A stretch of 64,000 nucleotides of DNA from Panagrolaimus kolymaensis (lineage: Eukaryota; Nematoda; Chromadorea; Rhabditida; Panagrolaimidae): the NCBI GenBank assembly GCA_028622995.1, contig JAJQJQ010000021.1:62001-126000 (forward strand), in the 5' to 3' direction. Shown one piece after another: positions 23,528 through 58,353 of this stretch (the stretch's first letter is position 1; each line of letters begins with the position of its first letter). The translations under genes were made by a program, and so were the position numbers. Under the pieces are notes generated by a model, which saw only the letters and a program-made list of their open reading frames with translations, was not told the DNA's origin and ran no database searches.

Positions 23528-23739
23528 ACATACTGTAATTTCTTCGTTCCTAAAAACTTAATCATGAGGCAGCGAATTTATTTTTTTTATCGTTTGGAAT
23601 CTGTATCATCTTCAATTTTAACGAGAGAGAAAAATTTTATTGTACTTTTTGAAATATTTAACAATTATGATGATGTTCTCTGATTACTCATTTTCATTTT
23701 TGCTTCTAGAAGAAATTTTTTTGAAGCAACAAAAAATTG

Positions 23740-23747
23740 TATAAAAG
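23740..23747 (+). promoter_or_regulatory. TATA box, secreted-family gene 4
   Basis: TATAAAAG 72 bp before the ATG, preceded by TGAAGCAACAAAAAAT as before genes 1 and 5. Confidence 0.6.
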
Positions 23748-23811
23748 CAAACGAATTTGGTTTAAAAAATTGCAATTCAATCAAAAAAACATTGAAACTT
23801 TAAAGCTGAAA

Positions 23812-24675: not shown

Positions 24676-25077
24676 TTTTTCTTTAATAAACATGCATGTT
24701 TACTGCTTTTCTGTGACATTTAAAAAATTTAAAATTGTTTTTTTTTTGATATATAAATAAATAATAACCACAAAAAAGTAAATTAATATTTTTTGAAATC
24801 CAAAAAAACAAGGTTCATTTAAAAAAATTGTCAAAACTCAATTATTTTCGGTAGAAAAATCTTTAACAAACAAGCGAATAGAATTTGCATGCTACATTTT
24901 TTCTTTTGTGATTTTTGATTTCAAAGCTCCATCATCATTTTTATTTTTAAAAAAAGTTTAACAACATGAACGAATTCGAAGATAGGCGCTGTCGATTACT
25001 AATTTTTCTTTCTCTTTTTTTCGATTCTTCCAATGCAAATGATTTACCAAATTTTTTTTGAAGCAACAAAAAAATAG

Positions 25078-25085
25078 TATAAAAA
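25078..25085 (+). promoter_or_regulatory. TATA box, secreted-family gene 5
   Basis: TATAAAAA 65 bp before the ATG, preceded by GAAGCAACAAAAAAA. Confidence 0.6.
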
Positions 25086-25142
25086 GCAAAAGTATTGCGT
25101 TTATAAATTTGTAATACAATCGAAAAAAACATTGATTGAAAA

Positions 25143-26094
25143 ATGAAGACTTATCATTTTTGGGTTCTCTTCCTTATGGCGACGGCTATCGGCTGCTATG
25201 AAGCTGCAGCAAAAATCCAACCCACAACCTCTGAAACTCCTCCAACTCTTCCTCCCCTTCCTACAATGGTACCAAGTAAATCACCGAAGAAAGCTTTTAA
25301 AAATCCTTCTTCATCAAATTTTGATGTTCCTCAAATTGATGATGATCGAAATAGACAATTATTTGAAAAATCACTTAATAGAATTTTTGATAACTTTACA
25401 GAATTCTTACAAGATCATGATCCAAGGTTCGAAGTAATATTTTTTTTCTTGGGTTATTATTATTTGCTTATTTTTTTAGCGTCTGTGTCCCAATAAAAGA
25501 AATCACCACATGCATCGAAGAAAATGGTCCCACTGAAGCTCTTAAAAATTTCCTTCTTCAAGCCTATGATGAATTTCATAAACCTATCAACCGTGAAAGA
25601 AGAATCAATTTTTGCTCGTAAGTTTTAAATATATTTTTTTATTCTAAAAACTAAATTATAAAAAATTCAGAAACACTGGTCCCCCACTCGGAATTGTTTT
25701 TAAATGTGCGATGAATGATCATACTTTAAAAAATCATACTTTTTTTTCTCGCGAATTTTATGATGCTTTTATGTTTGGTGCTTTACAATTTTGTCATTCG
25801 CCAGATAATTTTGCTGAACTTATGAATCTTTTGGATGCTGGAAATATTAAGGATTCATTGCCTAAAGAATTTCATCAACCCCTCATAGATTTTGATAATT
25901 TTTATCGAAATGGAAAAAAACAACAACCTATTTCTGAAAGTGAAATATGTTTGCCACGAAAAATTGCAGAAAGTTTTGAAGTTGCAGCAATTCAAACTAG
26001 AAAATTTCCATCCGAAATTCATGGTTCCATCGTTCAACTTGTTCATGTTATTTTTACAATTGCTTTAAAAACTCCTTTTAAATTATGCTTTTAA
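25143..26094 (+). CDS. Secreted six-cysteine helical protein, tandem family member 5
   Basis: Exons 25143-25426, 25480-25617, 25671-26094. Signal peptide WVLFLMATAIGCYEAAA. It has the longest N-terminal insert of the family, rich in Pro/Thr/Ser (QPTTSETPPTLPPLPTMVPS). The family core follows: LNRIFDNFTEFLQDHDP; VCVPIKEITTCIEENGPTEA, with an extra Cys (VCVP); GALQFCHSPDNFAELMNLLD; CLPRKIAESFEVAAIQTRKF; and end TPFKLCF. The extra cysteine may allow a new disulfide or a dimer (inference). Confidence 0.83.
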
Positions 26095-26709
26095 ATATAA
26101 ACTTTTTGAATGAATTTTTTTTTTGTCGCTAAAATTATAAATGCCAAATGCTTTTCTAAAATAAATAAATAATTTTATATTCTCACAAAAAGGTGTCAAA
26201 CATTTAAAAATTTTCAAAAATGAATTTATATTTGCATATATTTTTTCTCTCAAAAGCTAAATTGAACAAGTTTTAAAAAAAATTACTGTTTTTATCACCA
26301 AAATTTCTGGATAGAAAACAATTTGCATAAAAAATCATTAAGAATTAACAATTTTTGAAGAAAAAACAGCAGAGTTAAAAGACAAAGAAAAATATTTTTC
26401 TTCCATGAAATGATAAACTTTGGTTCTTTTAATTTATGTATACTCTGTAAAAAAACTTTGTTCTTTTTTTCATCAACATTTAAAATTTTTATTGTTGAAA
26501 GAAATTTTTTTAAAGCAAATAACAAAAAATAAAGAAATTTTAAAAGAAGAGGGTGAATAAAAAAAGGTGAAGCATCTTCTTCTTCCAACTTCGAAGAAGA
26601 AGATGATTACTAATTATTTTCTTTTATTATTTTTCACGAACAAAAAAACTTTGGCCTTTTTACAATTTTTTTTTGGAAATTAAAAAATAAAAAACATAAA
26701 AAATGTGTA

Positions 26710-26717
26710 TATAAAAA
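26710..26717 (+). promoter_or_regulatory. TATA box, secreted-family gene 6
   Basis: TATAAAAA 66 bp before the ATG. The flanking sequence is not similar to the other five. Confidence 0.5.
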
Positions 26718-26775
26718 GTAATAAATTTTTCTTTATCATCTGAAAAACAGCAGCGGACTGGAACTTCGAAAAAAA

Positions 26776-28044
26776 ATGGTGAAATATACTTGGTTGCTTC
26801 TTTTAGCTTTGGCTTTTGCAGTTTTTGGAGTTTATGGTGGAAAATTTCAACATCGCGTCGAAGTTTCTCCTCCTCGTCGCCCAACTAAAATTCCCGTCGA
26901 TGTTGTTGAAGAAAAATCAAATGAAACTCAAACTTTCGGTCAAGACCCAACTCAACTATTTAATAATGTCCTCGACAAAGTTTTTGATAATTTTACCAAT
27001 TTTTTGCAAGATCGTCATCCAAGGTTTGTTGTTATTCCCATAAATTTTTTTCTTTGAAAGATTAAAATTTCTAAATTTGGTTTTATTTAGCATCAGTGTC
27101 CCAGTTAAAAAATTTACCACTTGCATCGTTGATAGGTTTGAAATCAATGAACAAATTAAAAATCTTTTGATTGAAATTTACACCCATGTTGTCGTTAACA
27201 AATCTGATATTAAAACTCGAGCCAAATTTTGCAAGTAAGCTACATTTTTTAAATTTATATATTTAAAGCAGAAATTAATTTTTATTCTTAATTTTTAGGC
27301 AAAATGTTATTTTTTCCTCAATGATCATGTACTGTGTCGCCTCTACAGTAAGTTTGTTGAAAGTTTAAAAAAATTTCATAAAGTAGAGTTTGGCGCTTTT
27401 TTCGAATAAGAAAGTCAAATTCTATCGAAACTTTTTATCTTGGAAAAAAATTAAATATTTTCGCGATGAGAAACATAAATTAATTAAAAAAAGAGTTTTC
27501 TTTAATTTTTTAACCGAAAAAAATTTCTCTATAAAAATAATTTGTTTGTAAAAAAAAGAACTTCCTTAAATATTTTTTGGATCAAGACTTTGAAAACATT
27601 AAATTCAATTTTTACTTCAAATAAATAGTTTAATTTTTTTTATATCTGAATATCTTTAAGAATGATGGCGCTGGAAACGAAGCCTTCTTTTCATCATTCA
27701 TGAGTGCCATAGCTTTGGTTAAAAATGAATTTTGTAATGATCCATTCCTTCAAGAACGAATTATTGATCCACTTTCAAAAAGATTCGATTATTTAATCGC
27801 TCCACTTCCAAAAGAATATAAACAACCCATTCTTCGTTTCCAAGAATTAGTAAATTATGGAAAAAAACCAACAAACAAAAAAGATGAATGTTTGCCCGTT
27901 CGAGTTGGAGAAAGTTTTGAAATTTTGGCAATTCAAACTCACAAATTTGATTTCACCCTTCATGGACAAATTGGAAGTTTTATGCATTTCATCTCAACCA
28001 TGGTTGGAAATTTCCCATTCAAATCTTATGGAGAATGTGCTTAA
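26776..28044 (+). CDS. Secreted six-cysteine helical protein, tandem family member 6 (extra intron)
   Basis: Exons 26776-27023, 27091-27234, 27299-27347, 27661-28044. Signal peptide WLLLLALAFAVFGVYGG, then a basic/proline segment (VSPPRRPTKIPVDVV). The core reads LDKVFDNFTNFLQDRHP; ISVPVKKFTTCI; FCKQNVIFSSMIMYCVAST; then, after a 313-bp intron absent from the sisters, NDGAGNEAFFSSFM, LVKNEFCNDPFLQERIIDPL, CLPVRVGESFEILAIQTHKF, ending FPFKSYGECA. It is the most divergent member. The added intron splits what is exon 3 elsewhere, so it was gained here or lost in the ancestor of the others. Confidence 0.82.
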
Positions 28045-32041: not shown

Positions 32042-34402
32042 TTTTAAAAGAGATTTTCATTAATTTTCATTATAACTTCCACCCCTAGATTTAAATATTC
32101 CTTTAAACAGATCGTTTTAATAACATTGCCATCAACGCAAGTTGCTTCTGTTGGAACCACATTTAACCGGGATTAAGCCTCTCTCACTCGGGAAGCATGA
32201 AAACTTGTATACAGCAAAAAAAGTGAACCAATTAAATTTTTGTTTTCTTCAGCAATCCTATTTCAGTATTTATTCTTGCCTTTGCCTTAATAAAAGCTTG
32301 GGTATTGTTTATTTAAAAAGAAAATGTTCAGTTTTTTGCTTAATCAAAAAACAAAAAGTTGCACCAAAGCTTGTAAACGGTGAGCTACAGTTTAATTTTA
32401 AATGAGTCCAAAAGCGAACTTCACAATTTTAACAGTTTTTTTTAAATATTAAATTTATTTTTTCGTGTTTCTTTTGAAGCTTTTTTCATCGTTCTTTTGA
32501 TCATGACAGTTAAAAACTTTGGATTTTAAATATTTATCAATCGCCATTGCTGCATTTTTGTAATATGTAAATTTGAATTTTTTTGCCTCGGTTGAAAATT
32601 ATTGACAAACGAAATAAAAATTTCTACAGTTTATGAATTAAAGAAATAATATTTAAAAAATGCAATCATTTTTATATTTGTTTTTTTTATTTTACGTTTT
32701 ATGTTTTATTTTTTTTTACATTCATTTTGAGTGCTTTTTTGAATAATTTTATTTTAAAATTCATTTCTACGACGTCACGATTGGATTATTATTTTTCTCA
32801 GTTATGTAACAAAAAAAAGCGGAAGTTTAACCATCATTCATAAATTTGAAACAAATGGAAAAAGTGCATTAATTGCATTAACAAAAAAAGAGAGGGTTTA
32901 GTCACATAAAAATATGTAGGTAATAATCCGCTTTTTTATGGGTTTTTTTACCCCTCTTTTTCCGAAAATAAAATAATGTAAGAATATTTTCAAAAAATAT
33001 ATCCAAATTTCCCAAAATCAGTTTTTTTTGCTAATTTTTTATTTTTTTTCAATCATAAAAAACAAAAACCAACCCAACATCTCAGTTTTTAAATTTTTTA
33101 TTGCTTTATTATTTTACTCCTTGTCAGTTTATTAATATCAAAACTATAAATCGTATCAATCAGTTTTAATCTCTTTTTTTAATTTCCTTGATTTTATGCA
33201 AATTTACTACCACCAAAATAATTTGTAATCAAATTTTGAATTATGTAACAGTTAATTAAAAAACCTTTTTTATAATAACTTTTTTTTCACTTCCCTCCCA
33301 ATAAAAAGCGCTGACAGTTGTTTTTTCTCGACCTTCTTTTAGAGTATCTAAAAATTCAACTTGTTTCTTTATCGTCAGTTTAAAAATTAATGATATCCAA
33401 ACTCAGTTTTTTGTTAAATAATTTAAAAATAATAAAGCAAGTTTAATAAAAAGAAAATGAAAAAACAAACATTCATGCCGCCACATTATTTACAGTTTAA
33501 TTTGTTTTTATTTTTTTCCTGGGCGCAACGCAACCTATTAAGCAGTTTCTTACCTTTGTCTGATATATTTTTTTGAATCAGTTTTTTAGAAAATAAATTT
33601 TCAGCCTGTAATTTTTTTAATCCCCCGATATTTTCATTTGACAGTTACAATAAAATAAACATCTGGAAAAAATCACTGTTGCTAAGGCAGTTTTTAAAAA
33701 TAAAAATAAAAAGGCACTTTTTATTTCAAAGGAAATTCTGTTTAATAAACAATAAAAAAATTAAATAAACAATTTATATATAACCGTATTACTTGAAAAC
33801 AAAAAAAAACTTTAGCCATTATTTCTTTAAAAGGTTTAAGTTGAAAAATTAATAAAAATTTGGAAAACAGTTACACAAAAAAAGAGTAATGAATAATTCA
33901 TTTTTTTCCCCTTTATTGGTTTAGTTTTAAGTTTAATTTTATCATTTGCGCCTTTACAAAAAAGAACTCAGTTTAATTTTTAGTTTATTAAAATTATGTT
34001 CCAAAAATATGAATTAAAAAAAAAAAAAGATAATTTTTAAATTTCTGTGGAAAAAAGCGCTAATACTTATTTTTTTTTTGCAGTTTAACAAAAATTCAAC
34101 AACTTTCAATACCAGTTTTTAAATTTTTTTAAAAGAAATAATGGTTATCGACAATTCAGTTATTTAAACCAAACTACAACTACGACTACTACTATACATT
34201 TGACAAAAAGATACAAAGTGAAGGTTTTTTTTCAAATAAGTTTTTTTATTCCACGTATTTGTGAAATCGTTGAATAAATTTAAATAATAATAAAAATGAA
34301 ATTGGAATAATAATGGAATAATATTTTTCGAGTGGAACAAGTCAAAAAAGATTTATGTTTGAAAACCGGATTTTTTATTTTGATATATTGCATGCATTTT
34401 AT

Positions 34403-37400
34403 TTATTCATCATCGTCGTTACATAATAATGGCTGATATCGAGCCCGTTTACTATCATTTGCTTCTTTAGCCATTAAACCCACAATGAAACCAAATCCTG
34501 CACCAACGGTTGCACCAACAGCTGTACCAAAACCGGGAATAATTGCTGAAAAAAAAAATAATTTTGAAAAATTTAATTCAAAAATTTCACTACTCAGTTT
34601 TAATAATATTAAATTCTTTTTTGTTTGAAAAGGCAAAACTTTTATTTTGCAATTTCTTGATGAAACAGTGTTCTATGACAGTTTATACAAATTTTTCTAA
34701 TTTTCTTTGAATTCAGTTTAAAATTTTAGTAAAAAATGAATATAAAAAATGGCTTGGGTTAAAACAGTTTAATAAAAAAAATTTAATGATTTTCAGCAGA
34801 AGACCACTAACCAGTAAAACAACTTGCAGTTTTATAAAAAATAAATTAAGTGAAAAAAAACTCTCAAAGAGTGTTTGTTTTTTCAAAATTTACCAAAACA
34901 AGTTCAAAGATAAAAATAAAAATAAAAAATCTTTTTGCGAATGGAATAACCGATCTCGCCAAAGCACAGTTTTCTTAATACCTTATAAATTTAAATAAAG
35001 CTATAAAAAACTATTTGTTTTAATGTTTTTTTTATTTGTCCGTTACAAATTAAAGTCGGATCCTTCAGTTTTATAAAAGGAAAATAAAAGTCTTAAAAAA
35101 ACGACGAATTTGTAAGATTAATCAGAAGCCAGTTTAAATTTTTAAAAATATTTAATTTGTCAGTTGAAGACAATCAAACGCCTTTAAGTATACACAGTTT
35201 TGTAAGTATTTTTTGAAAAAAATTCTCGCTAATGTTAAATTTAAACAGTTTCTTAAACGTTTATAAATTTCAAAAAAAAGTTTTAATGTTTTTTTCATGG
35301 TGATTGAGACCAGCGCAGTTTAAAAAAAAAAAAATATATATATATACAATCAACAAGGTGAATTGGCAGTTTTTTTCAAAATATTTTATAGCCATAATTA
35401 ATGTGGCAAAAAGTTTCATAAAATTTCTTTATTTCCTTGTCGCTATCATTTTTGTTCCCCAAAAATTGCAACCTCCAGTTTTTTAAATAAAAAGAAAAAA
35501 TAGAAAAAAATATGAATTTTTCGTTTTCTTCAGAGATGAGATAACTTTTTGTCTGTAGGGTCAGAACTCAGTTTTATATTGAAATTTAAATTATTAAAAA
35601 ATGCAGCACACAGTTTTTCAAACTCATTCTCGAAATAAAAATTTTGCTTGTTTTCTTACCCTTTTAACTCTACCTACAATAAGGATTCCCAGTTTAAAAA
35701 TAGTCCCTTTAAAAACAACCGCCTCGATGTTCGCAGTTAATAAAAGTTCTTTTTGTTGATGATTTTTTTGTTTGTACACCTTTTCATCTTTTTAATGATT
35801 TTTTTTTTCTAACCAAAAATTAAAAGAGCATCAAACATTTTATTTTATTTTATTTTTTGTTGTTGTTGAAAATGGGAAATGAAGAAACAACAAAAAATAA
35901 ATTCGCTTTCCAGTTTTTAATGTCATTAGTTTAATTTTTTTTGTTAATAAAAGTGAAGGATAAAAACTTTGTAAAAAATATTACGTTCAAAGGAGAACTC
36001 AGTTTTCAAAAATATGCAAAAAAAAACCACAAAAATGTCTCTTAAAAAATTTCACTAGCAAAGGAAACAGTTTTTCAAAACTTTCTGCAGTTTAAAATTT
36101 TTCTGGATTAATAAGAAATTTTGTATAAAAATTTCTATGCTAGCACTTTAAAAAGAAATACAGTTAAAATAAAAATTTAATTATAATTAATATTTTATCC
36201 TTAGCAAATACCTTCTCCGCTGTTAACGCACTTAATCAGTTTTTAAATTCCTATTATATTGGCTTTAGATCGTAGAGAAAGAATAATAAAAAAATTGATA
36301 TTTTCGACATCAGTTTTAGAAAAATTTGGATTGAATATAGTTAATTTATGAGTTAAAATCTAATGAAAATAAAGGAAACAGTTTTAAAAATCTTATTAAT
36401 TTTTTGAAAATACAAAACAAATGTTTTTTTAAGAGTAAACTATTTTTTTACAAACAAAAACCTAAAAATAACTTTAACCTCAAGGAAAAAATTACTGCAG
36501 TTTTTAAAAAATGTTATACTCATAGAATTTGCTTTTAATTCTGATTATGAAATACAGTTTTTACTATCCCCCAAAAATTATTTTCTAAAGTAAACAAACA
36601 TGTGATAGATGATACCCAGTTTATACAACCTGCTTTTAGACTCGCTTCTCAGTTATCAGCAAAAAATATTGAACATAATGAATTTCGAAAAGTCGCAATC
36701 CAAGAAAACCTCAAATGCAGTTTAATTTTTCTTGTAAAATATTCTTATTTTTTGTTTGTTTGAAATATTTCGATTTGACAAATCAAAAAACTATCAAAAT
36801 GTTATTCAGTTTTTATATAAATTAATTTTGCATGAAGGATTATAAAGTATCGATTTTTTTTTTGACGGAACATTAAATGAAACAGTTTTTAGGAGTTAGA
36901 AATTACTCAAATATGACAAGTGCAATCCAGTTTATTTAAAATAAATTTTTATTTAAGTGACATGATACTATAAATAATTTTTGCTTTGTACAGTTTTTAG
37001 ACAAACAAAATTATAAGCAAATAATCATGTGATGGATGCTTCAACTTACAACTTGCTTTTTGGCTTCTCAATCTTATCAGCAAAATAAAATAAAAACCGA
37101 TTGTTTTTTATTTTTATGCTTTTTTTGTCCCTAATTGCTTGCAAATGATTTTCAGGAGAAGAATAGAAATTATGGAACTCCATTAAAAAAACAATGGTTT
37201 TGGAAATTTCGTACAAGCATGTGATTGTAAAGAAATTGACAGTTTAATTCTCAATGTGAAACTTTGCAAAAGGCATAAAATTACTATTTGCAAATCTTGA
37301 AAATTTATTTGATTTAACAGTTTTAAAAATTTGGATAAAACTAATATTATCGACTATAAAAAAAACTAATTTTGGAAAAAAAATTGTAACCTAAAATAAA

Positions 37401-37621
37401 ATTAAAATCTGCACAGTTTAATCCTCCTCAAACAATAATAAATAAAAAGATTCGCTTTTCTCGATAAAATTCCTGAGCTCAGTTAAAAAAAATTTTTAAA
37501 AATTAATGAACTTACTTCCTACTGTAGCTCCAGTAATAGCGCCCGCTGCAATGGCAGTAGTTCCAAATTCGGTATCTTCACTTAATTCCTTTCTTATTGG
37601 AGCAGGTTGAGGGGATTCCAT
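34403..37621 (-). CDS. Small glycine-zipper membrane protein with a ~3 kb intron
   Basis: Exon 1 37621-37516 (MESPQPAPIRKELSEDTEFG, then TTAIAAGAITGATVG), exon 2 34545-34403 (IIPGFGTAVGATVGAGFGFI, then VGLMAKEANDSKRARYQPLL and an acidic end). The 82-residue product has a Pro/charged N-terminus and a Gly/Ala-rich hydrophobic hairpin with GxxxG repeats, typical of glycine-zipper membrane segments. The C-terminus is basic, then acidic (NDDDE). The exact family is not recognised. Intron 34546-37515 (2970 bp) has normal GTAAGT and TTTCAG ends and is filled with the CAGTTT array, which here runs antisense to the gene. All other introns in the window are short except those of the CHK gene in the same array. 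Confidence 0.75.
36595..37085. repeat. Diverged local duplication inside the motif array
   Basis: 36595-36665 (CATGTGATAGATG, CAACCTGCTTTTAG, CTTCTCAGTTATCAGCAAAA) is repeated at 37003-37085 (CATGTGATGGATG, CAACTTGCTTTTTGG, CTTCTCAATCTTATCAGCAA). It shows that the array DNA duplicates locally. Confidence 0.6.
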
Positions 37622-40600
37622 TTTTATATATTTTTTTATTATTAACCGTATTTCACAAAAAAAACACGCAAATTACCAGTTAATTTTTATTTTAAATAAG
37701 CTTTTTCAAATTTTTTCAGTTTTTTTACCAAATTTAAGAAATAAACTATTTTTCTTAAGAAAAAGTGTTAGCGAATTTGAGAATATAAAATTTAAAAAAA
37801 ATTGAAAAGCAGGTCGTCGATGGTGGTGGGTTCTTTTCTTTTTATTTCTGAAAAGTGACACGCACTTTATTTCCTTTCGTTTCCTTTTTTTCTTTCTTTA
37901 TTTGGGAAATAGAAACAACAAACACGCAGAAACGTTGAAAAAAAAAAAGAAGAATTGAAAGCGAGCACTATTTAGGCGAAAGAAAAGAGAGTGAAGAGGG
38001 CAAAAGAGTCGTTTCGATGTTGCTCACTTTTTTTTTATTTGGTGTGTGTTACCTGACTGACTGAAACAACGTGAAATGAAAGAAAAAAAATATAAGTACA
38101 CAAAAGAAAAGAAAGAAAAAAAGGTAGAGGATAAAAACGTTATATTTTTTATTGTCGTTGTTGTAGGTAGTTGTTGTTCCGCCCTTATTTGAACATCGAA
38201 AAAAATAAAGGTGAAAAAGTGAGATAAAGAGAGAGAAATTTTTAGGAGAAAGAAATTAAAAAAAAGAAGTGGAGAGAGTGAAAAGTTATAAAAGCTTTAT
38301 TTTCTCCAGTATTCAAGAGTGCACAGTTTCAAAATAATGTAAGAAATTTCCATAATGAAAAACGCGGCTACAGTTTCAAAAAAAAATCATGCAAAAAAAT
38401 AAAAAGTTTTTCGACAGAAAAAAATGTCAGTCGATTTCTATGTTGTTTGTTGCTGCTATCAGTTTGAAGGAAAGACAAAAAATATAAAGCAGAGACCACG
38501 AAAATGAGATAAAAAAAAGTGGAAGGAGAGGGAGAAGGAAATGTAAACTTTATTTTTGTGCTTTTTTATTGTTTGTTGAAAGGTATGATGAATAAAAAGT
38601 GTTACATAATAAAAGCAAATAAAAAAAGTTTTTAAGAAGAAAAAAAGTTTAGGGAAGAAGAAAGGAAATTATTGATTTGACCTCTAAAATTTGTTATCCA
38701 AAATCAAAAAACAGTTTTTTCTCGAAATAAAAAAGTAAACAAAAAAATACATATGTGTGAATGGGAATTAATATTTTTTTACATTTGCTTTTGTTAACCA
38801 ATGACAGTTTTGAACAATTAAATTTAATAAAAAATGCACCAAAATTTTGAATTTAAAAAATATCTTGCAGTTTTATAGACAAAATTAAACTAAAAAGTAT
38901 TTCCACTTCCCGGCAGTTTTCATTTTGTTGTTGTTGTTGATTTCAGTATTAAGCGTCACAAGGCAGTTTTTAATATTTATATAAAAATTAAAGGAAAAAA
39001 GCTATTATTAAGTTTGGATTTAAAAAAATTAAACAAACCATCACAGTTCTTAAAATCCTCAAAAAGATTTTTCATTCCCTTTAATTAATATAAAAATCTC
39101 TATAAATATTAGATTGTACAGTTAAACCACCAAAATTTATATAATAAATTTCAAATATTTTTTGATTTTAATAAAATGAAGTGAAGTTTGCGTGAAAATA
39201 ACGATGTGAAAAGTTTTATCTAACAAAATTTTAAGTCCCCAAATTAATTATTTTCCAGTTATGCTAATTTTAATTCCCGTCCAATCTCGTCAACCCAGTT
39301 TTAAATTTTAAATTTTTAAAGTTTTTAATAGGAAAAGCTAATACTCTCCAACTTGACCATTAATAACGAAAAAAAGACTTCAAACAGTTTTTTAAATACT
39401 CGAGAGTTTGCATTTGCTCTATGCAAACTCTATTATTTTGCTTGTAATGACAGTTTTATTTTTGAATTTAAAAAGTGTTTTAAAATTCACAAAAGTTTCC
39501 ATTCCCTTCATAAAATAAAAATTCATATCCTTGACATAGTTTTTGTTAAAATTAACTCTGAATTTAATAACCTTTATGAAATCTCATAAGCAGCATAGAA
39601 ATATCAGTTTAAAAAACCACGTGAAAATTAAAACATAAAACACAAAAATGCGACAAATAAAACATTTTAAAATTTCTAAGCAGCCACAATATTTTTTTGT
39701 TGTTGCGTCACTTAGCAACTTAAATACATATGTCTCATATCTTTCATAGAAATAAAACCTTTTGAAGTTTAAAAAATGTGGTTTGTTCCACAACAAATAA
39801 AGCCCAAACTACAACAAAAAAATTTATAAGCAGTTTCATTCGTTTCAGTTTCAAAAAAAACATTATCAACAATGAACAGTTTTTAAAAAAAAAAATAAAG
39901 GCAAAAACATGGGTTTTATTTTTTTGCAAATGATTCGAATACGGAGTTTTCCGAAGGCAGCGAATAACTTTTTATCATTATCAGTTCTTAGAAATTTTTT
40001 AATTAAAAATCATTTTTAATCCTTTTTTTATTTATTGTATTAATATGCTTGTAATTATGTGAATATATTACACCTGCCTACTATTCAACTGATAAGTTTA
40101 AAAGTTTTGTAAAAATATGTCTTTTAAAACAAAAAAAATCCCCTACAGTTAAAATAAAAATAATAATAAAAAGGTTGCTTTTTAAAATCCGCTCCTTTTT
40201 TGGGCGATAGTGGAACTCGTCAGTTTTATTTGACACAAACCAGTGTGTCCAACTAACCAAATAGCTTTTCAGTTTAATGTAAATTCTACTGAATTTAAAA
40301 CACATTTACAGTTTAAAGAACACAGTTTCAAAATTTAAAAAAATAAAGAGTAAAATAAAAATTAATTTTGCTTTTATAAATTATTGAAATAGCAATTCAT
40401 ATTTTTTTGTGTTAAAAAACACAACGAATTACAGTTTGAATAAATAATTGCCATTAGGCTTCAAAATCGAGCAAAAAACTATGCAGTTTAAAAAAGTGAT
40501 GTGGAAGAAATTAATTCAAAAAATATTCATTTCTAAATGGAAAAAGAATAGTGCCAGTTAAAAAAATTTGAAAATAATATAATAGTTCAAAATAAAAATA

Positions 40601-41421
40601 TAATAAAACAATTTATATTATTAAAAAAATCGATTACTTGATGATTACAGTTATTAATATATAAAAAATAAACGTTTTAAAGAAAAGTCTTCATGTATCA
40701 ATAATTTCTTCAAATCACCATAAATAATTTTTTGAAGATTCCATGCGACAGTTTCCACAAATTAAATAATATGCTAATTTTAATTTACAGTTTAAAAAAA
40801 TTATAAAAGCATTTTGCACTTTCTGATTGATACAAATATCGATATCAGTTTTAATATAAAATATTAAAAATAAGCATAAAATAGCCATGTGTCGATTAAA
40901 GTTTGCAATTTCCTCACATTATTTATTTAAAAGTTTTTGCAAAAAGCAATACAGTTAATAGAAACAAAAAAATAGGAAAGCCAGTTTTAAAAAAAGTTAA
41001 ATTAAATATAATTAGCAGTTTTTTTGATCCATTGAAGATCTCAATTTATAAATTAAAAAAAATAATTAACAATATCAACAGTTTTTTTTTTGTAAAATAC
41101 ACAAAGCGAACATAAAGAAGTCAGTTTTAAATTTTAACAAACATAAATTTTCAATGTTTGAAATGTTTCAGTTTTGCCTCATAATTTTTTTTAATGCGAC
41201 ATCAGTTTAAAAAGAAAAAACTAGAAAAACATGTGAAATAACAAAAAGGAAGAATCTTGAAAAAAAAGTAAGCATAAAATCCAAAAAATCAACAAAAGGA
41301 AAAATGCAGCAAAAGAAAAAACCAGGAAGGCAGTTAAAAAAACAATATATGTATTTTTTATTTTTTCATTTGCAGTTTATTAGTTCTCACAAAAAAAGTA
41401 AAGTAAAGTTGCGTTTGATGG
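37622..41421. other. Intergenic part of the motif array
   Basis: 3.8 kb between the glycine-zipper gene start and the first copy of the CHK first exon. 37.7-38.7 kb is purine-rich (GAAAGAAAA, GAGAGAAAG runs), resembling nematode upstream or 5' UTR DNA. From 38.6 kb it is copy A of the tandem duplication. No other exon recognised. Confidence 0.55.
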
Positions 41422-44400
41422 ATGGCGTTGTCATCATCGAATGCTGCAATTTCTTCATGGAAAATAGAAAATACAAATTTTAGCAGTTTTTTTATATTAA
41501 AAATTTTAAATCGCCATCATCCTGAATGGAATCATGGAGAAGATATTCGAGCGGTATGTATTTTTCTTTAGAACTTGAAAAGTTTGCAAAAAGATGGATA
41601 TAATCATCCTATGACAGTTTATAATTACTAACTTATTTTCTCTTGCCATTAAGAACGTCTATCATCAGTTTTAAATAATTAAATTATTTGTTGTGCAGCT
41701 AAATTGGGAAAGGTTATTTTTCCCCATGGCCATTACCTGTTGCAGTTTTTTAAAAAAAGTTTTTTCTCATGCCATTAACTTTCTTTCGTCATAAAAAAAG
41801 CTTTCTTTTTATAATATCGAAATGGGAAACAAATGAATTTATAAAATTTCGAATTTTTTCGTTAATTGTGGAGATTTGTTTTTGAATTTTAATAATTTTC
41901 ATTGAGTTGCCAATTATGAACTTTCTATTCCATTCTTCCACCACCCCAAAAATGAAACGCAGTTTGAAAAAAAATTATTAACTTCTTTTTATCAGTTTCT
42001 TAAATTTTTAAATTTTATGTTGTTAGAATCGATGATTTTTTTCTTTTTTCATCGGCATCAATTCGTTACAGTTTTAATAATCATTTTTGCTTTATAATCA
42101 GTTAAACTTTCCCTTCTTTTTTCTAGCTAACAAGAAGGCGCCCAATTAAAAAATAAGAAAATATATTTCAAAAGTTAGAGCTTATCGTCAGTTTAAAAAA
42201 TTCTATTAATAATTTTTTCCTTTTTTTAAAATGCAAGCGACAAATTTTTTTTCTTAAGCTTTATTCAAAGTACTCAGTTTTTTTAATGTTATCTTTTCAT
42301 TTGTTCCCCTTTCCTCCAAAAAAACCTTCCTTTTTAGGAAGATCTTTTTACATATCTATAATTTTATTCATTTATGCCAGTTTTATACAACACCAAAACT
42401 GATCACAGTTTTATCGAATTTATTAACATCAAAAAAGAGTAATTTTTTTGTTCCCCGTAGGGTGTGTTTGTTCATCGACAATTAAATATAAGTTTTTAAA
42501 GAGCTTTTTTTTAACGTAAAATTATTTATAGTTTTTTTTATTATTAAAAAACGAATTATACTTTTTTTTTATTATCCACAAGAGTTATAAATTTGTGACA
42601 GTTTTAAAAAAATATTTTCTTTCTCCTTTTCCTTACAAACAACAATTTCACTTTTCTTTATATATTTTTATGATTAAAAAATGATGCAATAAGAAAAGCA
42701 GTTTATTAAAATTACTTGTCGCCTCTTTTAGACAAAAAAACGTAAAACGTATCTCCTCAGTTTTACTAATTTCTACAAAAAATAATTGGTCTTTTTAATA
42801 TGTCCCTTCGATAACATTCACGAGCAGTTAGTTAATGAGGAAAAAATGTTATTTTTGGTGCTAAATCATTTCTATGAATTTTGATAGAATAAACAAACTC
42901 TCACAAATCTTGACAGTTAAAAAAAATTTATGAATAATTAATAGGTTGATCAATTTTTCAAAAATATTTGATGATAGTTATTTTCTAGAAATATTAAATG
43001 TGTTGTTACATAATAAAAACAAATAAAAAAATTGAAGGAGAAAAGTATGAAGGAAAATTTGGGAAAAATAACATTATTGATTTGACCTCGGAAATCGTAA
43101 CATCACAATTTTTATCTAAATAAAAAAGTAAATAAAAAATATGTGAATGAGAACTACCATATTTTCTTTTAACCATGTCTTCAGTTTTAAAAAAATTTGT
43201 AGTTTTAATTAAAACCTCCAAAATAGGTTTATTAACTTAATTTTCAGTTTAAAAATGTCAAATTAAATAAATAAAAAAAACCTCTTTGAAATTTAAACAT
43301 AGAGCACAAAAGTGGGAAATACACTATTTTAAAGTTTCAAGCCACAAAAGCTATTTGCGCCACTTAGCAACTTATGTACATAAGTCACATATTTTTTTTT
43401 CATTGAAAAGACTCTTTTTTTAAAGTATGAAATATATGGTTATACAAAAACAAGAATTAAACCAATTAAACAAATTAAAATTCAGTTTAAAAAAAATTAT
43501 TAAAATATAATCCAACTTTTTTTGTGGAACAACTCGAAGAAGTAAACAGTTTAAAAATTTAGAAATAAAAAAAAGATGTCCATGTTTCGATAAATCTATG
43601 TGATTTTTTTGATCCTAATTTTTCTGAAACTTTGCAAAAACATGAAAACTTTTTATACAGTTTAAAAAAAAAATTAAACATTTCCACCTTTTTTTGTTTA
43701 GTCTCGATGGTCGCAGTTTAAAATTTATAGAAAAAAAATTAATAACAAAAAATGAATTATTTTCCATTTAGCATTAAGTTTACACAGTTTTAGCACATTT
43801 TTAAAGCCTATAATGCAACACCAGTTTAAAAGAAGAAGAAAAACTAGAAGCCAGTGAAATATCAAGGAAGCATAAGTAAAAAAAAGTAAGGCTAAAATCC
43901 AAAAAATCAACAAAGAAAAAATCAAGTAACAAAAAAAGTAAAAAAGAATATAACTTTTTTTCTTTTTTGCAATTTTTTGTTCTCACAAAAAAGTAAAGTT
44001 GGGATTGATGAATGGCGTTGTCATCAGCATCGAATGCTGCAATATTTTCATGGAAAATAGAAAATACAAATTTTAGCAGTTTTTTTATATTAAAAATTTT
44101 AAATCGCCATCATCCTGAATGGAATCATGGAGAAGATATTCGAGCGGTTTGTATTCTTATTTTTTTCTTCTTGTAATTATTGTAGCATAACCAATTTTGG
44201 TTTTTTTTGTACAGTTAAATTTTTTTTCATCATTTCTGTTAGAAATAACTTTTGTTTTTTAAATCGCTAGGTTTTTATTTACAGTTTGCATTGTTTTTTC
44301 TGACAGTTAGAGTTAAAGAATTTTTCCGTGCTGCAACATGTACCTCAGTTTTCTAAATTTATTTTTGACGTTTTCCTTCTGCCTTTCCTCTTTCCAAAAA

Positions 44401-45400
44401 AAAAAAACTTCCCTTTAATTTATATAAGTAAAAACAAAACAGTGCAATTTTTATTAATTCAAATGCGCGACAATTAGCGCATATTTCCCTTCAGTATTAA
44501 TAATTTTCTTTCTTTAACTGCCTAGTTTATTAAGAACTTCTCTTCCTCCTTTCCACGCCATAAAAACAATGTGAAAAAATATATATAATTTCGCAGTTTA
44601 TAATTTTTTTTATTTGTAGCTAGAATGGCAGATTTTTTTCTTTTTTCACCCCTCTTTGTGATGTTTCAGTTTTTAAGAAATAAATCTTTTTGTCTCTCTT
44701 TCGTTCCTCTTTTCCGAAAAAGCTCCTAATTTTTAAATAAAAAAATCGGGATCAGTAGAGTTATTAGAATTCAAACAACTTACAGCATTGAATTGCATTT
44801 TCGTTTCAGTTTTATTTCCTATTTTTCAAATGATAGTCAGTTAAGGGATTTTCCATTTTCAGCAAGAAATTGCAGTTTAAAAAAATAAAAAAATAAAAAA
44901 AGTCATCTTTAAAGATTTAAATACCCCGGACATTTTATAAATTATTTTCATTTTTTTATGTAATGTCAATAAGAGAAACCTTTCCTTTTTCACACCTCAT
45001 TAACCTTACTACTCAGTTTAAAAAAATATCTATTTTTCCTTCCCATTTCCTTACAAAAAATTAATATTTCCCATACATTTTTTCTAAAATCAAAAACAGT
45101 TACAATTAGCCAGTTTAATAAAATTATTTAAGTTGATGTGGAACGAAAAAAACACCTTAACTTTTCCAAACAGTTTTTATAATTTATACAAAAAATGGGA
45201 CTTTTTTATGTATCCCACCGGTAAAGAAGTTCAGTCACAGTTAAAGAAAAAAAAATGTTTTTGGTGCAAAGTTATTTCTAAAAATTTTCGATAGAATAAG
45301 CTACTCACATGCATGACAGTTTTAAATTTTTTTTAACAAAAATTAATCGTTTGATCAATATTTCAAAAATAATTTGATAAAAGTTGTTGCAAGAAATCAT
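38580..45400. repeat. Tandem duplication: copy A about 38.58-42.99 kb, copy B about 42.99-45.40 kb
   Basis: Collinear matches: 38598-38760 with 43000-43170 (GTTACATAATAAAA, ATTGATTTGACCTC); 39620-39780 with 43290-43440 (GCCACTTAGCAACTTA in B; GTCACTTAGCAACTTA in A); 41230-41553 with 43870-44146 (first exon); 42770-42990 with 45185-45400 (TGATAGAATAA in A, CGATAGAATAA in B; TTGATCAAT). Copy B is shorter through deletions. Non-coding parts are strongly diverged, while the exon is almost identical. Confidence 0.75.
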
Positions 45401-47577
45401 TTAAACGCAGTTTTTTTAGTTAACAAAGCCACCCGAAGCTAAATGGATTAGTGAGGGAAAGGGATTTTCTTCCAAAATTTATTCCATCAAAGTTACAGTC
45501 GCAGAAAATACTTACCAGTTTTGTGTAAAAGTATGTTTTTATTTTCAAAAAACAAATTTAAATAATAAAATTTACCAAAAAAAGACAGTTTCAAACAATT
45601 TAAATTTATCAAATCCAGTTTAAAAATTTTTTTGAAAAGTTTATACAGTTTAAAAAAAAATAAATGTTTTTAGATTCCAAGCATTTTTCATTTGGAGTCA
45701 AGCATTGTGGCAGACACTCAAAATGAAGCCCATATCAATGGTAATTGTTTTACGTCAGCTCAAATTACTACAGTTTTAATTTTTTTAGACCAAAAATCTG
45801 CTGCTCGTCGAATTATTTCTCAAACGCATTCGCGAGAATTGGCTTTTTATAAGCTTGTTTCTACAACAACAACTCAGTTTAAAGATTTAAAAGTTCCTAA
45901 ATTTTTTTATGGTCGTGAATGGAATAAAGATCAAGAAGTAAGCAAGTCTTTTACTGTGATATACAGTTTATATATAAAAATATCACAGAAAATTTTTTTT
46001 GATTTTTTTCACCCAAAAAGAAATTGCGAGACAGTTAAATTATAAAAGTTTTTTCCCCAGTTTTCAAAAAGGTTGGCAGTTTCAAAAAAATGTATAATAA
46101 TAAAGTTTTTCGACAATAAAATATTCTATTGTCCGATTGATGGCAGTTTTTTTTTGGTTGCTGCATCGGGCTTTGATAACTTAGAGTAAATTTCCGACAG
46201 TTTCATTATAAATTTTCAAAAATTTACTTTTGTTTTATGCATTCTTCCACCTTTCTCAATTATAAACAGTTTAATTAATGTTTCGAAAATTCTTTTTATT
46301 TCTAAAAATTTGCATTTTCTCCTTTCAAACTTCGGTCCTTAGCGAGAAATGACAGTTTTATATTTTGAGTTATTTTAAATTTCCAAAAATAGTTCACAGT
46401 TTGGGAGTTGTTCTCTCACCATCCACCGCAGTTTATAAATCGCTTGCGTACCTAGGAACACAGTTTAATAATTTTTAAAAATCAAATAATTTTTTTAAGG
46501 GAATAATTTTTATGGAAGATTTTACAAATCGATGCAATCCTAATTTTTGTGCTCGGCAACAATTTACTCATGAACAAATTTTGGCCTTGATAGATCAAAT
46601 CTGCATTTTACAAACTTCAACAATGTTTATTGATAATCTTGAAAATGGTTTTCCAGTTTTACCAAACACCGTAAATTCCATGGCGAAATATGCTCAAATG
46701 AGTGTTGAAATATTAATGGAAAGAAATTTAGATTTTTTCACGGTGGAAGTTGCACGAAAAATTCGTGATTTGGCTCAACCAGAAACTTTAGCTCAAATTC
46801 TTGTTCGATGCGGTAAGAATTTGATTATTTTATTATCAAAAAAAATTTAAAGCATATTTTTTGAGAGTAAATTTTTCTTCGATGCAAATTCCAAAAAGTT
46901 TTTTTATTTTTTTAAATCAATAATATCTTTATTTTTCAGTTTTTTAAAACTATTTCGAAGTAATTTCAATTTTTGATCCATGAAAATTATTTATAAAACC
47001 CATCAAAAAATCAAATATTTTCTGTTTTTATTATGCAAAGCTAAAACTTAAAATTTTGTTTTATTTTTTTAGTTCTAATAACTCAAATTTAATTTATGAC
47101 TTTTGTAAATTTTCCATTACAAATCGAAAAAAAAATTTTTTAGACGACTTATTTCACGTTTTGGTTCATGGCGCAATTTGGCCTGGAAATGTTCTTTGGT
47201 CCATTCACGATAACTCCCAACTTCTTTCAATTGTGGATTGGCAAGGTTGCTTTTGTGGTTCACCCACCGCTGATTTGGCTGCAGTTTTAGCAATTTCCGT
47301 TGACCCTGAAGATCGTCGAAATCGAGAGGATGAATATTTAAAATATTACATCCAAAAATATGATGAATTTCGTGATAAATCTAAAACTTCGCCAACTCCC
47401 CTTGAATTTGAAGCCATTCGAGAATCTTATGGTCGGTCACTTCTTTATAACATGATTGAATTGATTGTTGTAATTATTACAAATCCATTGGATGATATTA
47501 TTGAAGAAGAAGGAGAAACTTTGGGAGTTATGACTAAACGATTAAAAGCTTTGATTGAAGATTTATTAATGGAATAA
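41422..47577 (+). CDS. CHK kinase-like (DUF1679/EcKinase-type) protein with duplicated first exon
   Basis: Two candidate first exons: A 41422-41553 (44 codons, donor GCG|GTATGT) and B 44012-44146 (45 codons, donor GCG|GTTTGT), both MALSS...SFFILKILNRHHPEWNHGED. Shared exons: 45674-45937, 46500-46812, 47144-47577. Family features: SRELAFYKLVSTTTTQFKDL, VPKFFYGREW, GIIFMEDFTNRC, the catalytic-loop-like HGAIWPGNVLW (the family usually has HGDxWxxNxL, so Asp is Ala here), and the metal-binding-like IVDWQGCFCGSPTADLAAVL. The Asp-to-Ala change in the HGD motif suggests weak or no kinase activity; the DWQ motif is kept. CHK-like enzymes phosphorylate small hydroxyl compounds such as ecdysteroids. 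The introns of 4.1 kb or 1.5 kb carry the CAGTTT array. Family call fairly firm; N-terminal exon choice inferred. Confidence 0.75.
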
Positions 47578-51637: not shown

Positions 51638-52940
51638 AATTTTTCTCACAAAAAAAATTTGAAAGCAAATATAATTTCTTTAGGTTATTTCAAATTTCTT
51701 TTATACCCAGAAATTTGTGCATCAAAAGGCAAAAAGCCATGGTTGTTAATTCCCAAAAACTTTTTTTTTGATAAACAACGAAAAAAAGGTGGAACTCCAT
51801 CCATTTCCGCCCAAAAATCTTATGTTTTAAAATTGACAAAACTTCCCACTTCTGTATATACGCCTTTATTGGAATCTAAATGTGTTTTGATTTTATCAAC
51901 AAAAAAATATTGTATTCACATTTTTTATATTTTTGCTTTCTAATTCTTCTCTTAATTAGGAGCTGATAACCCAACCTTTGGTGAAGAAAAAAGGAAATAA
52001 TTTTGTTTCTTTTTTTTCTTTGGTGCTCTTATCAATTTTTATGCTTGATTTTTAGTTTGTTACTTTCACCCTTGACGTGAGAAGTAAAAGAAAAAAAAGC
52101 TTATCATTTACTCAGCTTGTCGTCGTCGTTAACAAAATTAATTGCCAGAAATAAAAAAGGGAGTGGTGCTTCTGTTGCTGTTGCTTTGTTATCAAAAAAA
52201 AAAATTTGAAAATCATTAATTTTACATTCCTTTTTGGGAATTAAAAAAAAGTACTTTTTCCAATTTGAAGAAAAAGCGTTCGATTAGAATAAGAAAATTG
52301 GAAGAAGAAGAAAAAATAAATATACTTTATTCTTAAATAAGTCAGTTTATGGTTTTGAGTCAGAGGAATACTGTAGTCTAAAAATATATTTTTATTATAT
52401 AAAAAAACGTGGCAAATTGCAAATATTTTTGTTAAAAAAGAATTCAACCTGCCACTCCTAAACCGTTAATGTTTTTAGGGTGTTTCTCATATGAATGCGT
52501 AGGCAAAAAAAATTATTGCCAATTTTATTTTAAAATTCGGAACACCTAATTTTTAAACTGTAAGTAAATATTTTGTTTTTTATTTTTACATCTTACATCT
52601 GAAAAACAAACTTTGAAGTAAGAATAAACACATTTTTCAGAATTTTTCTTTATTTTTTTTTTCTCAATAACACACAGATGCTTCAAAGCACCTTGATCAG
52701 CCTGCTACAAAATGGAGTTCGCGTGGGCCACAAAGAATGCATCTTTTTAAATATAGCTTTTAAAAATCTTTTGTTTGGTTGTAAAGTTTATTTTCATTAA
52801 TGCGAAAATTTGAAAAAAAAAGAAACAATAAAATTAAACTAATATGTATTTTACCAGGTGTCTCACAAGTATAAAATAAAATGTTATTCACAAACTTTTC
52901 TAACATTTTTTGGAAATATTTTTTTCTCCTTCAAAAAATA
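51638..52940. other. Intergenic between divergent genes
   Basis: 1.3 kb shared upstream region of the minus-strand VWD gene and the plus-strand CTLD array. It has GATA-type sites (CTTATCA near 52027 and 52100), a CGTCGTCGT run near 52120, and no coding signal I trust. Confidence 0.55.
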
Positions 52941-54180
52941 ATGTTTCAGCTTTTATTTCTTTCATTTTTCTTCTTTTCTTCGGTTTTTGCATTTGGAACC
53001 AATTCCACCACTACCATCGAATGGCGATCAAAATTTTACACATTTGTTTTTAATCCTCCTCTTCCATTTATTGATGCGGAAATTGCATGCATAAATTTGG
53101 GAGGTCATTTAGCTTCAATTCATAATGGATATACGAATGCTTTTTTGATTTGTAAGACGCTTATTAAAAATTTGAAGAAAACAAAATTTATTATAAAAAA
53201 TTTTTTTCATTTTTTAGTGGAAGCTAGACTTTTCAATGAAACTTTTAATCCTGGAAGTTATTCAGCCTTTAATTATTCAAATAATAATAATAATTCAAAC
53301 TATTATTATTTAAATAATAATTTTATGGATGAAATTTGGATTGGCGCCACAAATATGATTTATCTATATCTTTGGGGTTGGATTGATGGAAGCGCATTTG
53401 ATTATGGAATGGGTTTCAATGTAACCACTTCTTCTTTATCGAATAATTATTCTTTGTGTGCATATTTGAACTTTGAGAATGGATTATGGAAAAGTGAAAA
53501 TTGTGACAATCCAAAACCATATGTTTGTGTGAGCAGCGGCAAAGTTCCTGATGATAATTTTAACACCACAACAGCTAAACCTTCTTCAATAACAACAAAT
53601 TTTCCATTTTCTTCGAAAACTTCTACAAAAACATCGATTACATCTCAATCTCAATCTTCAGTCTTTCCAATAAATATCCGAACAACTCAAAAATTAACAA
53701 CAACTCCAAATAATTGTACCGATTATTGCCCTTTTCAATGGAGATATTATCCAGTGACATCTTCATGTTATTACATTAATAGAGATAAGCTTAGTTGGTA
53801 CCAAGCTGAAAAGTATTGTGTTCATAAAGGGGCACATTTGTTATCAATTCATAATTCTGTTGAATTTCAATTTGTTAATGGTAAGTACAAAAAAAAAAAT
53901 TGATCGAATGATAATAATAAGAAAAAGTTCAGAATTTAGAGTATATTTGAATGGAGCCCTTATCGGCTTTGACACATCATGGATTGGACTTCATAAAATC
54001 AATAGTAGCGAAGTATTTAAATGGACAGATGAAACACCATTTGATTATTTTCAATGGCAACTTGGTAATTCAACAATCAACAGTGGTTATGAATGTGTTA
54101 ATATAGGAATAACATTTAAAAATGATTATCCTTGCGAAACTACTTTACAATCTCTTTGTAAAAAACCAGCATTATGTTAA
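52941..54180 (+). CDS. Secreted protein with two CTLDs
   Basis: Exons 52941-53151, 53218-53880, 53933-54180. Start chosen at MFQLLFLSFFFFSSVFAFG, the best signal peptide; an upstream in-frame ATG at 52881 is less likely. CTLD1: RSKFYTFVFNPPLPFIDAEI, CINLGGHLASIHNGYTNAFL, an Asn/Tyr-rich insert (NNNNNSNYYYLNNN), DEIWIGATNM, YVCVSSG; its first cysteine is missing (RSKFYTF where paralogues have KCYYF). A Ser/Thr linker follows. CTLD2: CPFQWRYYPVTSSCYYINRD, KGAHLLSIHN, TSWIGLHKI, FKWTDETPFDYFQW, SLCKKPALC. No EPN/QPD triplet in either. First of six CTLD genes in tandem on this strand. Confidence 0.87.
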
Positions 54181-54624
54181 ATAATCAATAACAAACTTTA
54201 TTCATATTTATGTTTATTTTTAACATAAATTTTTTGCACGTCACAGACTTTAAAAATTTCATGATTATCTCCATTTTTATTTAAGGAGCAAATGGCAATT
54301 GCACTTTAATAAATTTGTTTACAATTTGAAACAATTTTTTTAATTTAATCTAAAGTTTTCATTTTTGCAGTGAAGTCAACCCTTTTAAAAATTCTTAGTG
54401 GTTGGTAATTGATAACCACGAAAATTATTAATTACAATAATTGTAATGAGGGCATGTTTTCTAAAAAGGTTTCAATGATTTTTTTAAATTTTCTTTTAAA
54501 AAAACAGAAAGAATCATTTTTGCAAACATTTTTTTTTCTTCAACATCATATTCAACAATGACACATTTAACACAATTATTCATAGCTTCAAATCAAACCA
54601 AGCAAGCCACGGCGTCTTTTTTTA

Positions 54625-54634
54625 TGCATAAAAG
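54625..54634 (+). promoter_or_regulatory. TATA-like box before the mucin-CTLD gene
   Basis: TGCATAAAAG about 120 bp before the ATG at 54755, in a short GC-richer patch (GGCGTC, GGCGGCGG). Confidence 0.4.
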
Positions 54635-54754
54635 GCGGCGGTTTGCTACTTTCTTGATCATCAAAATTTTTTTTTGTTGTTTAAAAAAAAGTTTCAACAA
54701 AATTTTATTTCATTTGAAACTTTTTTGAAAATTGTTTTTTTTTTTCAAACGAAA

Positions 54755-58335: not shown

Positions 58336-58353
58336 CATCTTTGAAAAAGCACG

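Follow-up and report, generated by a model that had tools for sequence, protein, structure and literature searches.

Our analyses indicate that a 14-kb block of Panagrolaimus kolymaensis DNA is probably a dense array of putative small-RNA genes, each with a guide of ~20 to 21 nt beside a conserved cis signal. The block lies within a 64-kb stretch (hereafter, the window). On our best reading, such arrays would be piRNA-like in layout and in cluster scale, but with a different, abutting motif and with fast-evolving guides. It remains an open question how transposons are silenced after the loss of Piwi in nematodes outside clade V. In the present case, genome sequence by itself pinpoints candidate loci almost to single-base precision and predicts the RNA ends, and the candidate guide portion changes fast while its signal stays fixed. 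The species is triploid, and the three diverged copies of each array permit a unit-by-unit test of selection on guide sequences. If true, our reading would make the guide library of a parthenogenetic and cryptobiotic animal identifiable. The features discussed below are as follows (window positions):

32386 to 46466, plus strand: one-directional array of ~160 units, from count, spacing, composition and homeolog comparison
46333 to 46359, plus strand: example unit, a 20-bp element (−20 to −1) followed by CAGTTTT, with the motif starting at 46353
37517 to 37621, minus strand: exon 1 of a short glycine-rich protein gene (MESPQPAP...), unit-free, in our reading
34403 to 34543, minus strand: exon 2 of the same glycine-rich protein gene, unit-free, in our reading
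45674 to 47577, plus strand: APH/ecdysteroid-kinase-like gene, from a DUF1679/EcKL match in the frame 46984 to 47577

Within the block, CAGTT occurs 163 times on the plus strand and 3 times on the minus strand; the corresponding counts for the whole window are 192 and 38. Base composition predicts 11.2 copies in the block and a first-order Markov model predicts 18.5, giving a 9- to 15-fold excess that depends on the expectation model. These values bear out the original prediction of about 160 one-directional motifs at ~15-fold enrichment, and the limits that it placed near 32.39 and 46.47 kb agree with a first copy at 32388 and a last copy at 46461. CAGTT is also the top strand-asymmetric 5-mer in the block by the asymmetry score used. 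Outside the block, CAGTT is found at 0.58/kb and its reverse complement, AACTG, at 0.70/kb. Spacing had been described as 28 to 120 bp; its irregularity and a floor near 28 bp were evident, but the real range is wider (14 to 607 bp, median 68 bp, 162 spacings). In the pooled data, 8 of 512 CAGTT[TA] spacings were shorter than 28 bp, compared to ~95 expected from a geometric law. The sequence between copies was unique, as proposed, except for one internal duplication (41192 to 41569 with 43811 to 44162, 82%). GC content in the block is 22 to 28% per kb. The six CAGTTTCAAA variants were located within one base of the positions claimed for them, and CAGTTTCA accounts for 8 of the 163 copies.

The block does run across two genes of opposite strand, namely an intron of the minus-strand gene and the plus-strand kinase-like gene. 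The intron (34550 to 37505) of the glycine-rich gene contains 38 plus-strand units, and its exons, as read, contain none. The frames 45674 to 46045 and 46479 to 46850 have no Pfam match, and we infer that they belong to the APH/ecdysteroid-kinase-like gene. One CAGTT, at 45875, falls within the open frame 45674 to 46045, which may be an exon of this gene, and the array ends with a unit at 46461, just upstream of the frame 46479 to 46850. An Rfam search of the window produced no match at the gathering score.

Similar one-directional blocks are present on C3, C5 and their homeologs, and the blocks recur across multi-Mb domains. Among the matches listed, 56 of 57 hits on C3 lie beyond 6.78 Mb, and C5 carries at least 35 hits, from 0.25 Mb onward. 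Clustering of loci in Mb domains, as in type I piRNA loci, is thus a property of these units. Orientation is uniform within each block and unit density is ~7 to 12 per kb, the motif density being a selected figure because the stretches were chosen by motif: six of the pooled stretches were picked around motif hits and the seventh, the window block, by the original prediction. The homeolog tests described below compare position with position inside the stretches. A total on the order of 10^4 units per haplotype would follow from 2 of 420 units, which is only an extrapolation. Inside blocks, AACTG was depleted, with 35 copies observed and 68.7 expected (nine sequences, 102.6 kb, homeologs being non-independent); sequence B showed no depletion (10 versus 9.7 expected). 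The recurring blocks, this depletion and the abutting variable element lay beyond the view of the original prediction.

The units share a common layout, with a C-biased base at −20, a hypervariable element of ~19 nt at −19 to −1, CAGTT[T/A] at 0 to +5 and an AT-rich stretch at +6 to +23. The extended motif is CAGTT[T/A]AA on the plus strand of the window block, and TTWAACTG on the opposite strand. Across 506 units from the seven stretches, position −20 is C in 31%, A in 35%, T in 29% and G in 5%, position −21 is near background and slightly AT-richer, and GC is raised from −20 to −1. The elements are nearly all distinct (509 of 510). The sole identical pair, 41484/44077, reflects the internal duplication, and three further pairs lie within 4 of 19 mismatches; guides shared among units were rejected on this basis. 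A separate promoter element, sought 5′ and 3′ of the units by composition and substitution ratios, was not seen.

Comparison of homeologs revealed a kept motif beside a fast element. At one locus, the motif was intact in 536 of 637 aligned observations, compared to 1001 of 2128 for permuted 5-mers, where the 637 comprise six ordered pairs, so that each pair is counted twice. Among motif-kept units, the base-corrected substitution ratio at −19 to −1 was 2.04 to 2.13, 3.23 to 3.56 and 2.38 to 2.59 at the three loci, and acceleration was found in nine of nine pairs, with lower 95% bootstrap limits of at least 1.71. Flanking positions were slower, with ratios of 1.08 to 1.40 at −40 to −21 (at the second locus 1.27 to 1.40, with limits just above 1) and 0.91 to 1.42 at +6 to +12. 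Ratios at +13 to +30 were 1.13 to 1.60 before removal of neighboring units, and per-position ratios at +30 to +45 were 0.90 to 1.45, with no acceleration comparable to that of the element. The ratio of zero at 0 to +4 holds by construction, because only kept motifs entered. In a permuted-word control at the first two loci, using the same 19 positions and excluding real-unit positions for the controls, the 33 of 59 5-mers with enough conserved copies gave ratios of 0.33 to 1.35, compared to 2.47 for CAGTT. A MAFFT alignment of 72 triple-shared units at one locus gave a variable fraction of 0.25 to 0.45 at −19 to −1 and 0.11 to 0.26 at −50 to −20; noncoding DNA beside the block, its coding limits being rough, shows 9.0% substitutions. 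In the example unit at 46333 to 46359, both homeologs carry a strongly divergent element, and the sequence directly 3′ of the motif agrees.

The 5′ edge of the element is gradual, with pooled ratios of 1.24 at −21, 1.32 at −20, 1.68 at −19 and 2.56 at −18, which allows an element length of either 18 or 19 nt. Isolated outer positions reach 1.67 (at −35). At the first locus, 88% retained the C at −20, and the ratios for −20 at the second locus were 0.93, 1.95 and 3.00, from 4, 9 and 10 changes, respectively. Change peaks at −8 to −1 (pooled ratio 2.82, versus 2.20 to 2.31 over the rest of the element), an excess that does not show in every pair (B–C, 2.06 versus 2.03). The acceleration is not accounted for by GC content, since the ratios are base-corrected. 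The substitution spectrum of the element equals that of the flanks and is without a deaminase-type signature; the faster change could be mutational instead of selective, and the spectrum does not discriminate between these. Spread of units by insertion was rejected: among 204 unit absences, 118 had a changed motif with the sequence present, 77 a missing region and 9 a deleted unit, all of these counts being alignment-dependent.

In the mechanism that we propose, the ~19-nt element would be transcribed and would serve as an Argonaute guide. We consider it somewhat likely that the RNA comes from the strand opposite CAGTT, because it would then read 5′-U G N19, an RNA of ~21 nt in which the 5′ U is constant, and because the AT-rich stretch would then lie just upstream and the fastest positions near the 5′ end. 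Read in this direction, A+U is ~81 to 90% from g−12 to g−4, and the constant U belongs to the motif itself. The invariant G that this reading places at the second guide position would be atypical. A hairpin analysis around 250 units gave no support for such structures: mean pairing was 0.47 to 0.54 on the CAGTT strand and 0.49 to 0.58 on the opposite strand, compared to 0.48 for random sequence, the opposite strand being slightly more paired.

It is possible, if rather doubtful, that the guides lie instead on the CAGTT strand, as the 20 nt preceding the motif, and derive from long one-directional precursors for which CAGTTTWAAA and the AT valley would form a 3′ end signal, whether a pause, an Integrator-type cleavage or an endonuclease site. 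The motif is, we presume, similar to the snRNA 3′ box (GTTT N0–3 AAA), with which, as an Integrator signal, it would share the word GTTT N AAA. Strand-coherent blocks, a hard 28-bp spacing floor and conservation seen only 3′ of the element are all consistent with such precursors, as is the raised GC followed immediately by an AT-rich valley, a layout that resembles the Pol II pausing signal of other nematode piRNAs. Arguing against them, the 5′ base of the guide, at −20, would be only weakly biased, the fastest change (−8 to −1) would fall in the 3′ part of the guide, and no start signal was found 5′ of the element in 506 units; moreover, most blocks avoid the reverse motif, which an RNA-level signal does not predict. 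Mutation can be locally faster where proteins are bound and at start sites, and short, conserved, oriented words in Mb domains would suit a protein-binding array (pairing-centre-like or architectural) or transcription-linked mutation, with the adjoining DNA mutating faster without a guide role. We regard this as unlikely: the effect is one-sided, spans ~19 nt and is absent at +6 to +12 in most pairs, mutation leaves the raised GC and the biased edge base on the same bases unexplained, and neither zinc-finger pairing sites nor An/Tn clusters by themselves predict an accelerated, one-sided element of ~19 nt. The matching spectra of element and flanks are neutral on this question. Periodic An/Tn clusters or ordinary AT-rich intron composition, which would account for the AT-rich setting, are scarcely credible given the 163:3 strand ratio and a conservation of CAGTT between homeologs far above that of words of the same composition.

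It is very unlikely that the block is a canonical type I (Ruby-motif) piRNA cluster whose motif has diverged and whose 21U RNA lies ~40 bp downstream, even though cluster scale, the AT-rich intronic and intergenic setting and the GTTT in the motif would fit. The GTTTC core of type I loci was not found, as C occupies +6 in only 6% of the 506 units; no position from +25 to +139 passed the chi-square mark in these units; YRNT at +35 to +44 reached 0.080 to 0.085 versus 0.076 for random sequence, which leaves room for a smeared, weak signal; and the acceleration abuts the motif on the opposite side. The original prediction is supported in its core proposal, a piRNA-like cluster in which a fixed motif is paired with an unconserved partner, by the fixed place of the variable element, its fast evolution and the Mb-scale domains. 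Its Ruby-like core, with a second fixed signal and an RNA start ~35 to 45 bp downstream, is not supported by the same data, the variable partner instead abutting the motif 5′. In addition, clade IV nematodes, which include the P. kolymaensis lineage, are reported to have neither PRG-1/Piwi nor piRNAs. The genome contains 143 PIWI-domain matches, and when pieces of six sampled Argonaute loci were compared with the PDB, five matched AGO above Piwi and one matched AGO only.

The loading protein would be one of many Argonautes, and probably not Piwi. Fast change of the element would reflect selection favoring novel specificities, directed at transposons or other selfish RNA. When 889 elements were compared with one transposon and the window flanks, no excess of matches was seen apart from a slight one over shuffled elements, and matching stayed below that of AT-richer spacer DNA. 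Taken further, though tentatively, a clade IV lineage may, after losing Piwi and its Ruby-type piRNAs, have evolved a new genome-encoded guide repertoire of perhaps ~10^4 units per haplotype, in which ~19-nt elements, each set against a new cis motif, stand in one-directional blocks above a minimum spacing and change faster than neighboring DNA under selection for new targets; this would be a convergent piRNA system with non-Piwi Argonautes.

C. elegans type I piRNA loci likewise consist of numerous very small units within multi-Mb AT-rich domains, both intronic and intergenic, and combine a fixed motif with a free guide that turns over fast while the signals stay (PMC6436959, PMC9683057). The units described here differ in that their motif departs from GTTTC and directly adjoins the element instead of standing ~40 bp from it, YRNT is not clear, spacing has a 28-bp floor, the element is faster than neighboring DNA and the host lineage is reportedly without Piwi. 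C. briggsae piRNA clusters occupy both strands, unlike the one-directional blocks here, and that study reportedly found piRNA sequences to be under little selection (PMC9683057). Bipartite SNAPc/Ruby promoters in Plectus also depart from the C. elegans form of piRNA cis signal, but they are described as Piwi-linked and as retaining the Ruby motif (PMC6436959). In S. ratti, a clade IV nematode without Piwi, 21–22U RNAs preceded by AT-rich sequence are reported, with clusters that cover 1 and 2.7 Mb (PMC9203780). Those RNAs were sequenced, whereas the present units are known from genome sequence; their clusters lie across both strands, and no motif was reported for them. Clade IV and a reported absence of Piwi are common to both, and the opposite-strand reading would predict RNAs of ~21 nt with a 5′ U here as well.

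The array at window positions 32386–46466 carries 163 copies of CAGTT on the plus strand and three on the minus strand, a 9–15-fold excess over expectation, with the first copy at 32388 and the last at 46461. This bears out the one-directional enrichment and the limits given in the original prediction, as well as its statement that the array crosses two genes of opposite strand. Specifically, the array passes through an intron of a minus-strand gene, the two exons of which (in our reading) are free of units, and its other end enters a plus-strand kinase-like gene, where the copy at 45875 falls in an open reading frame, perhaps one of the exons of this gene. The largest gap in the array (607 bp) coincides with a stretch that is purine-rich on the plus strand (37722–38700), upstream of the start of the minus-strand gene.

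We numbered each unit from its motif, CAGTT[T/A], at 0 to +5, and pooled 506 units to obtain a composition profile. Through −21, the bases barely depart from background apart from a slight AT increase next to −20; position −20 itself is enriched in C (31%) and depleted of G (5%). Raised GC extends from −20 through −1, the motif follows, and +6 to +23 is AT-rich. No position past +23 stands out as far as +139, so the second fixed signal expected 35–45 bp downstream of the motif does not appear in this profile. Neighboring motifs are closer than 28 bp in 8 of 512 spacings, compared with ~95 expected. This floor equals a 20-bp element plus an 8-bp motif, indicating that units can abut but hardly overlap. 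The block also contains an internal duplication (41192–41569 and 43811–44162, 82% identical), which carries a copied unit with identical element sequence (41484 and 44077).

The window block has two homeologs, on contigs C5 and C23, which are ~87% identical over the query used. Across the three copies, 536 of 637 aligned CAGTT observations keep the motif unchanged (ordered pairs were used, which counts every comparison twice), compared with 1001 of 2128 observations of permuted words. At −19 to −1, 17–29% of bases are substituted, except at −10 (13.5%); outside this interval the figure is mostly 7–14%. Noncoding DNA adjoining the block shows 9.0% difference, and coding DNA, with rough limits, 5.7%. 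The base-corrected ratio over −19 to −1 is 2.13, 2.10 and 2.04 at this locus, in agreement with a separate MAFFT alignment, 3.56, 3.33 and 3.23 at a second locus (C5 at 1.03 Mb, C20 and C23), and 2.56, 2.59 and 2.38 at a third, from another homeology group (C3 at 7.99 Mb, C18 and C42). In the permuted-word control, run on the first two loci, the 33 of 59 words with enough conserved copies gave ratios of 0.33–1.35. The pooled ratio climbs from 1.24 (−21) and 1.32 (−20) to 1.68 (−19) and 2.56 (−18), is 2.31 at −19 to −14 and 2.20 at −13 to −9, peaks at 2.82 at −8 to −1, is zero by construction at 0 to +4, and drops to 1.18 at +6. Against a clean picture, the ratio is 1.27–1.40 at −40 to −21 of the second locus and 1.13–1.60 at +13 to +30 of the first two loci, where neighboring units are still included; position −20 shows no clear constraint at the second locus. 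The substitution spectrum of the element is that of its flanks. The fast change therefore does not look like relaxed constraint, which leaves selection favoring change or a mutational effect confined to a very short stretch.

The genome-wide look for further blocks that had been proposed, in an assembly of 265,843,910 bases and 807 contigs, revealed similar one-directional stretches on C3 and C5. Exact matches to CAGTTTAAATTTT number 177+182, compared with 82+107 for its mirror. Among the 100 matches listed, 57 are on C3 and 35 on C5, and 56 of the 57 on C3 lie beyond 6.78 Mb (including the hit at 6,779,665). Three 10-kb stretches on these contigs hold 79–105 CAGTT[TA] one way and 0–5 the opposite way, with orientation varying between stretches. 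Spot checks of 1 kb were positive in two of eight cases from 6.9 Mb onward on C3 and in none of four earlier; on C5 two of eight were clear and one weak. None of 30 Argonaute loci fetched for comparison had more than four motifs on a strand. Very rough extrapolation, based on 2 of 420 units carrying CAGTTTAAATTTT exactly and on ~170 surplus occurrences in the genome, gives 3–4 × 10^4 units over three haplotypes.

From the fixed signal, the fast-changing free element of nearly fixed length, the spacing floor and the megabase-scale domains, we infer that the arrays are probably a guide-RNA gene bank. The original prediction had favored a diverged form of the Ruby-type promoter of Caenorhabditis elegans piRNA loci; on the composition, YRNT and substitution-ratio tests that we ran, the array does not qualify as a Ruby-motif cluster. 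We favor, with modest confidence, an RNA from the strand opposite CAGTT. In this reading the sequence is AAAC-UG-N19, and the RNA would have a constant 5′ U, run ~21 nt to where the variable zone ends, have AT-rich DNA upstream and, in the pooled profile, change fastest toward its 5′ end. Its 5′ U, length and AT-rich upstream DNA would resemble features published for the 21–22U RNAs of Strongyloides ratti, as described in excerpts of PMC9203780. An RNA along the CAGTT strand would instead comprise the GC-raised element with the AT valley just 3′ of it, a layout matching that of nematode piRNA pausing signals in the excerpted literature, and would have no clear 5′ base rule. AACTG inside blocks numbers 35, compared with 68.7 expected, although sequence B, one of the nine sequences counted (102.6 kb in all), lacks such avoidance; the avoidance favors a DNA-level, orientation-sensitive signal. 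Among the literature matches listed (titles and abstract openings, with most subscription papers and all preprints outside the scope), none concerned a CAGTT motif or guide arrays in Panagrolaimus.

P. kolymaensis is placed in nematode clade IV. Its genome is triploid, of 266 Mb, according to excerpts of PMC10374039, and excerpts of two papers state that neither Piwi nor piRNAs were found in clade IV nematodes (PMC4323106, PMC6436959). The genome yielded 143 PIWI-domain matches, in which one gene may match exon by exon. The Argonaute repertoire is large, and many of these matches apparently fall in homeologous sets. When pieces of six sampled loci were compared with solved structures, AGO scored above Piwi in five (448.3 vs. 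60.0, 78.3 vs. 54.4, 89.6 vs. 62.5, 92.6 vs. 60.4 and, with a small margin, 64.8 vs. 59.1 bits), and the remaining locus matched AGO only.

The C23 copy of the block contains a 1.75-kb element (C23:2751784–2753533; L048:5785–7534 in the stretch taken from this contig) with long terminal inverted repeats, judged by eye from the printed ends, which is missing from the window copy. This stretch is nearly unit-free, which suggests that a DNA transposon inserted recently into the array. Other features of the window are as follows:

11556–12185, a frame matching DUF1759
12474–18352, a run of many C-type-lectin-like open frames (by eye)
19764–28044, a local family of similar secreted-looking frames, e.g. 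...CLPIRVAESYEVAAIQSRMFQFELHG...
52875–62848, a second run of many C-type-lectin-like open frames (by eye)

The one secreted-looking frame tested had no Pfam match. A Lectin_C match was confirmed in the single lectin-like frame tested, and some of the lectin-like frames have very long Thr/Ser-rich linkers. DUF1759 is a domain common in BEL/Pao-type retroelements.
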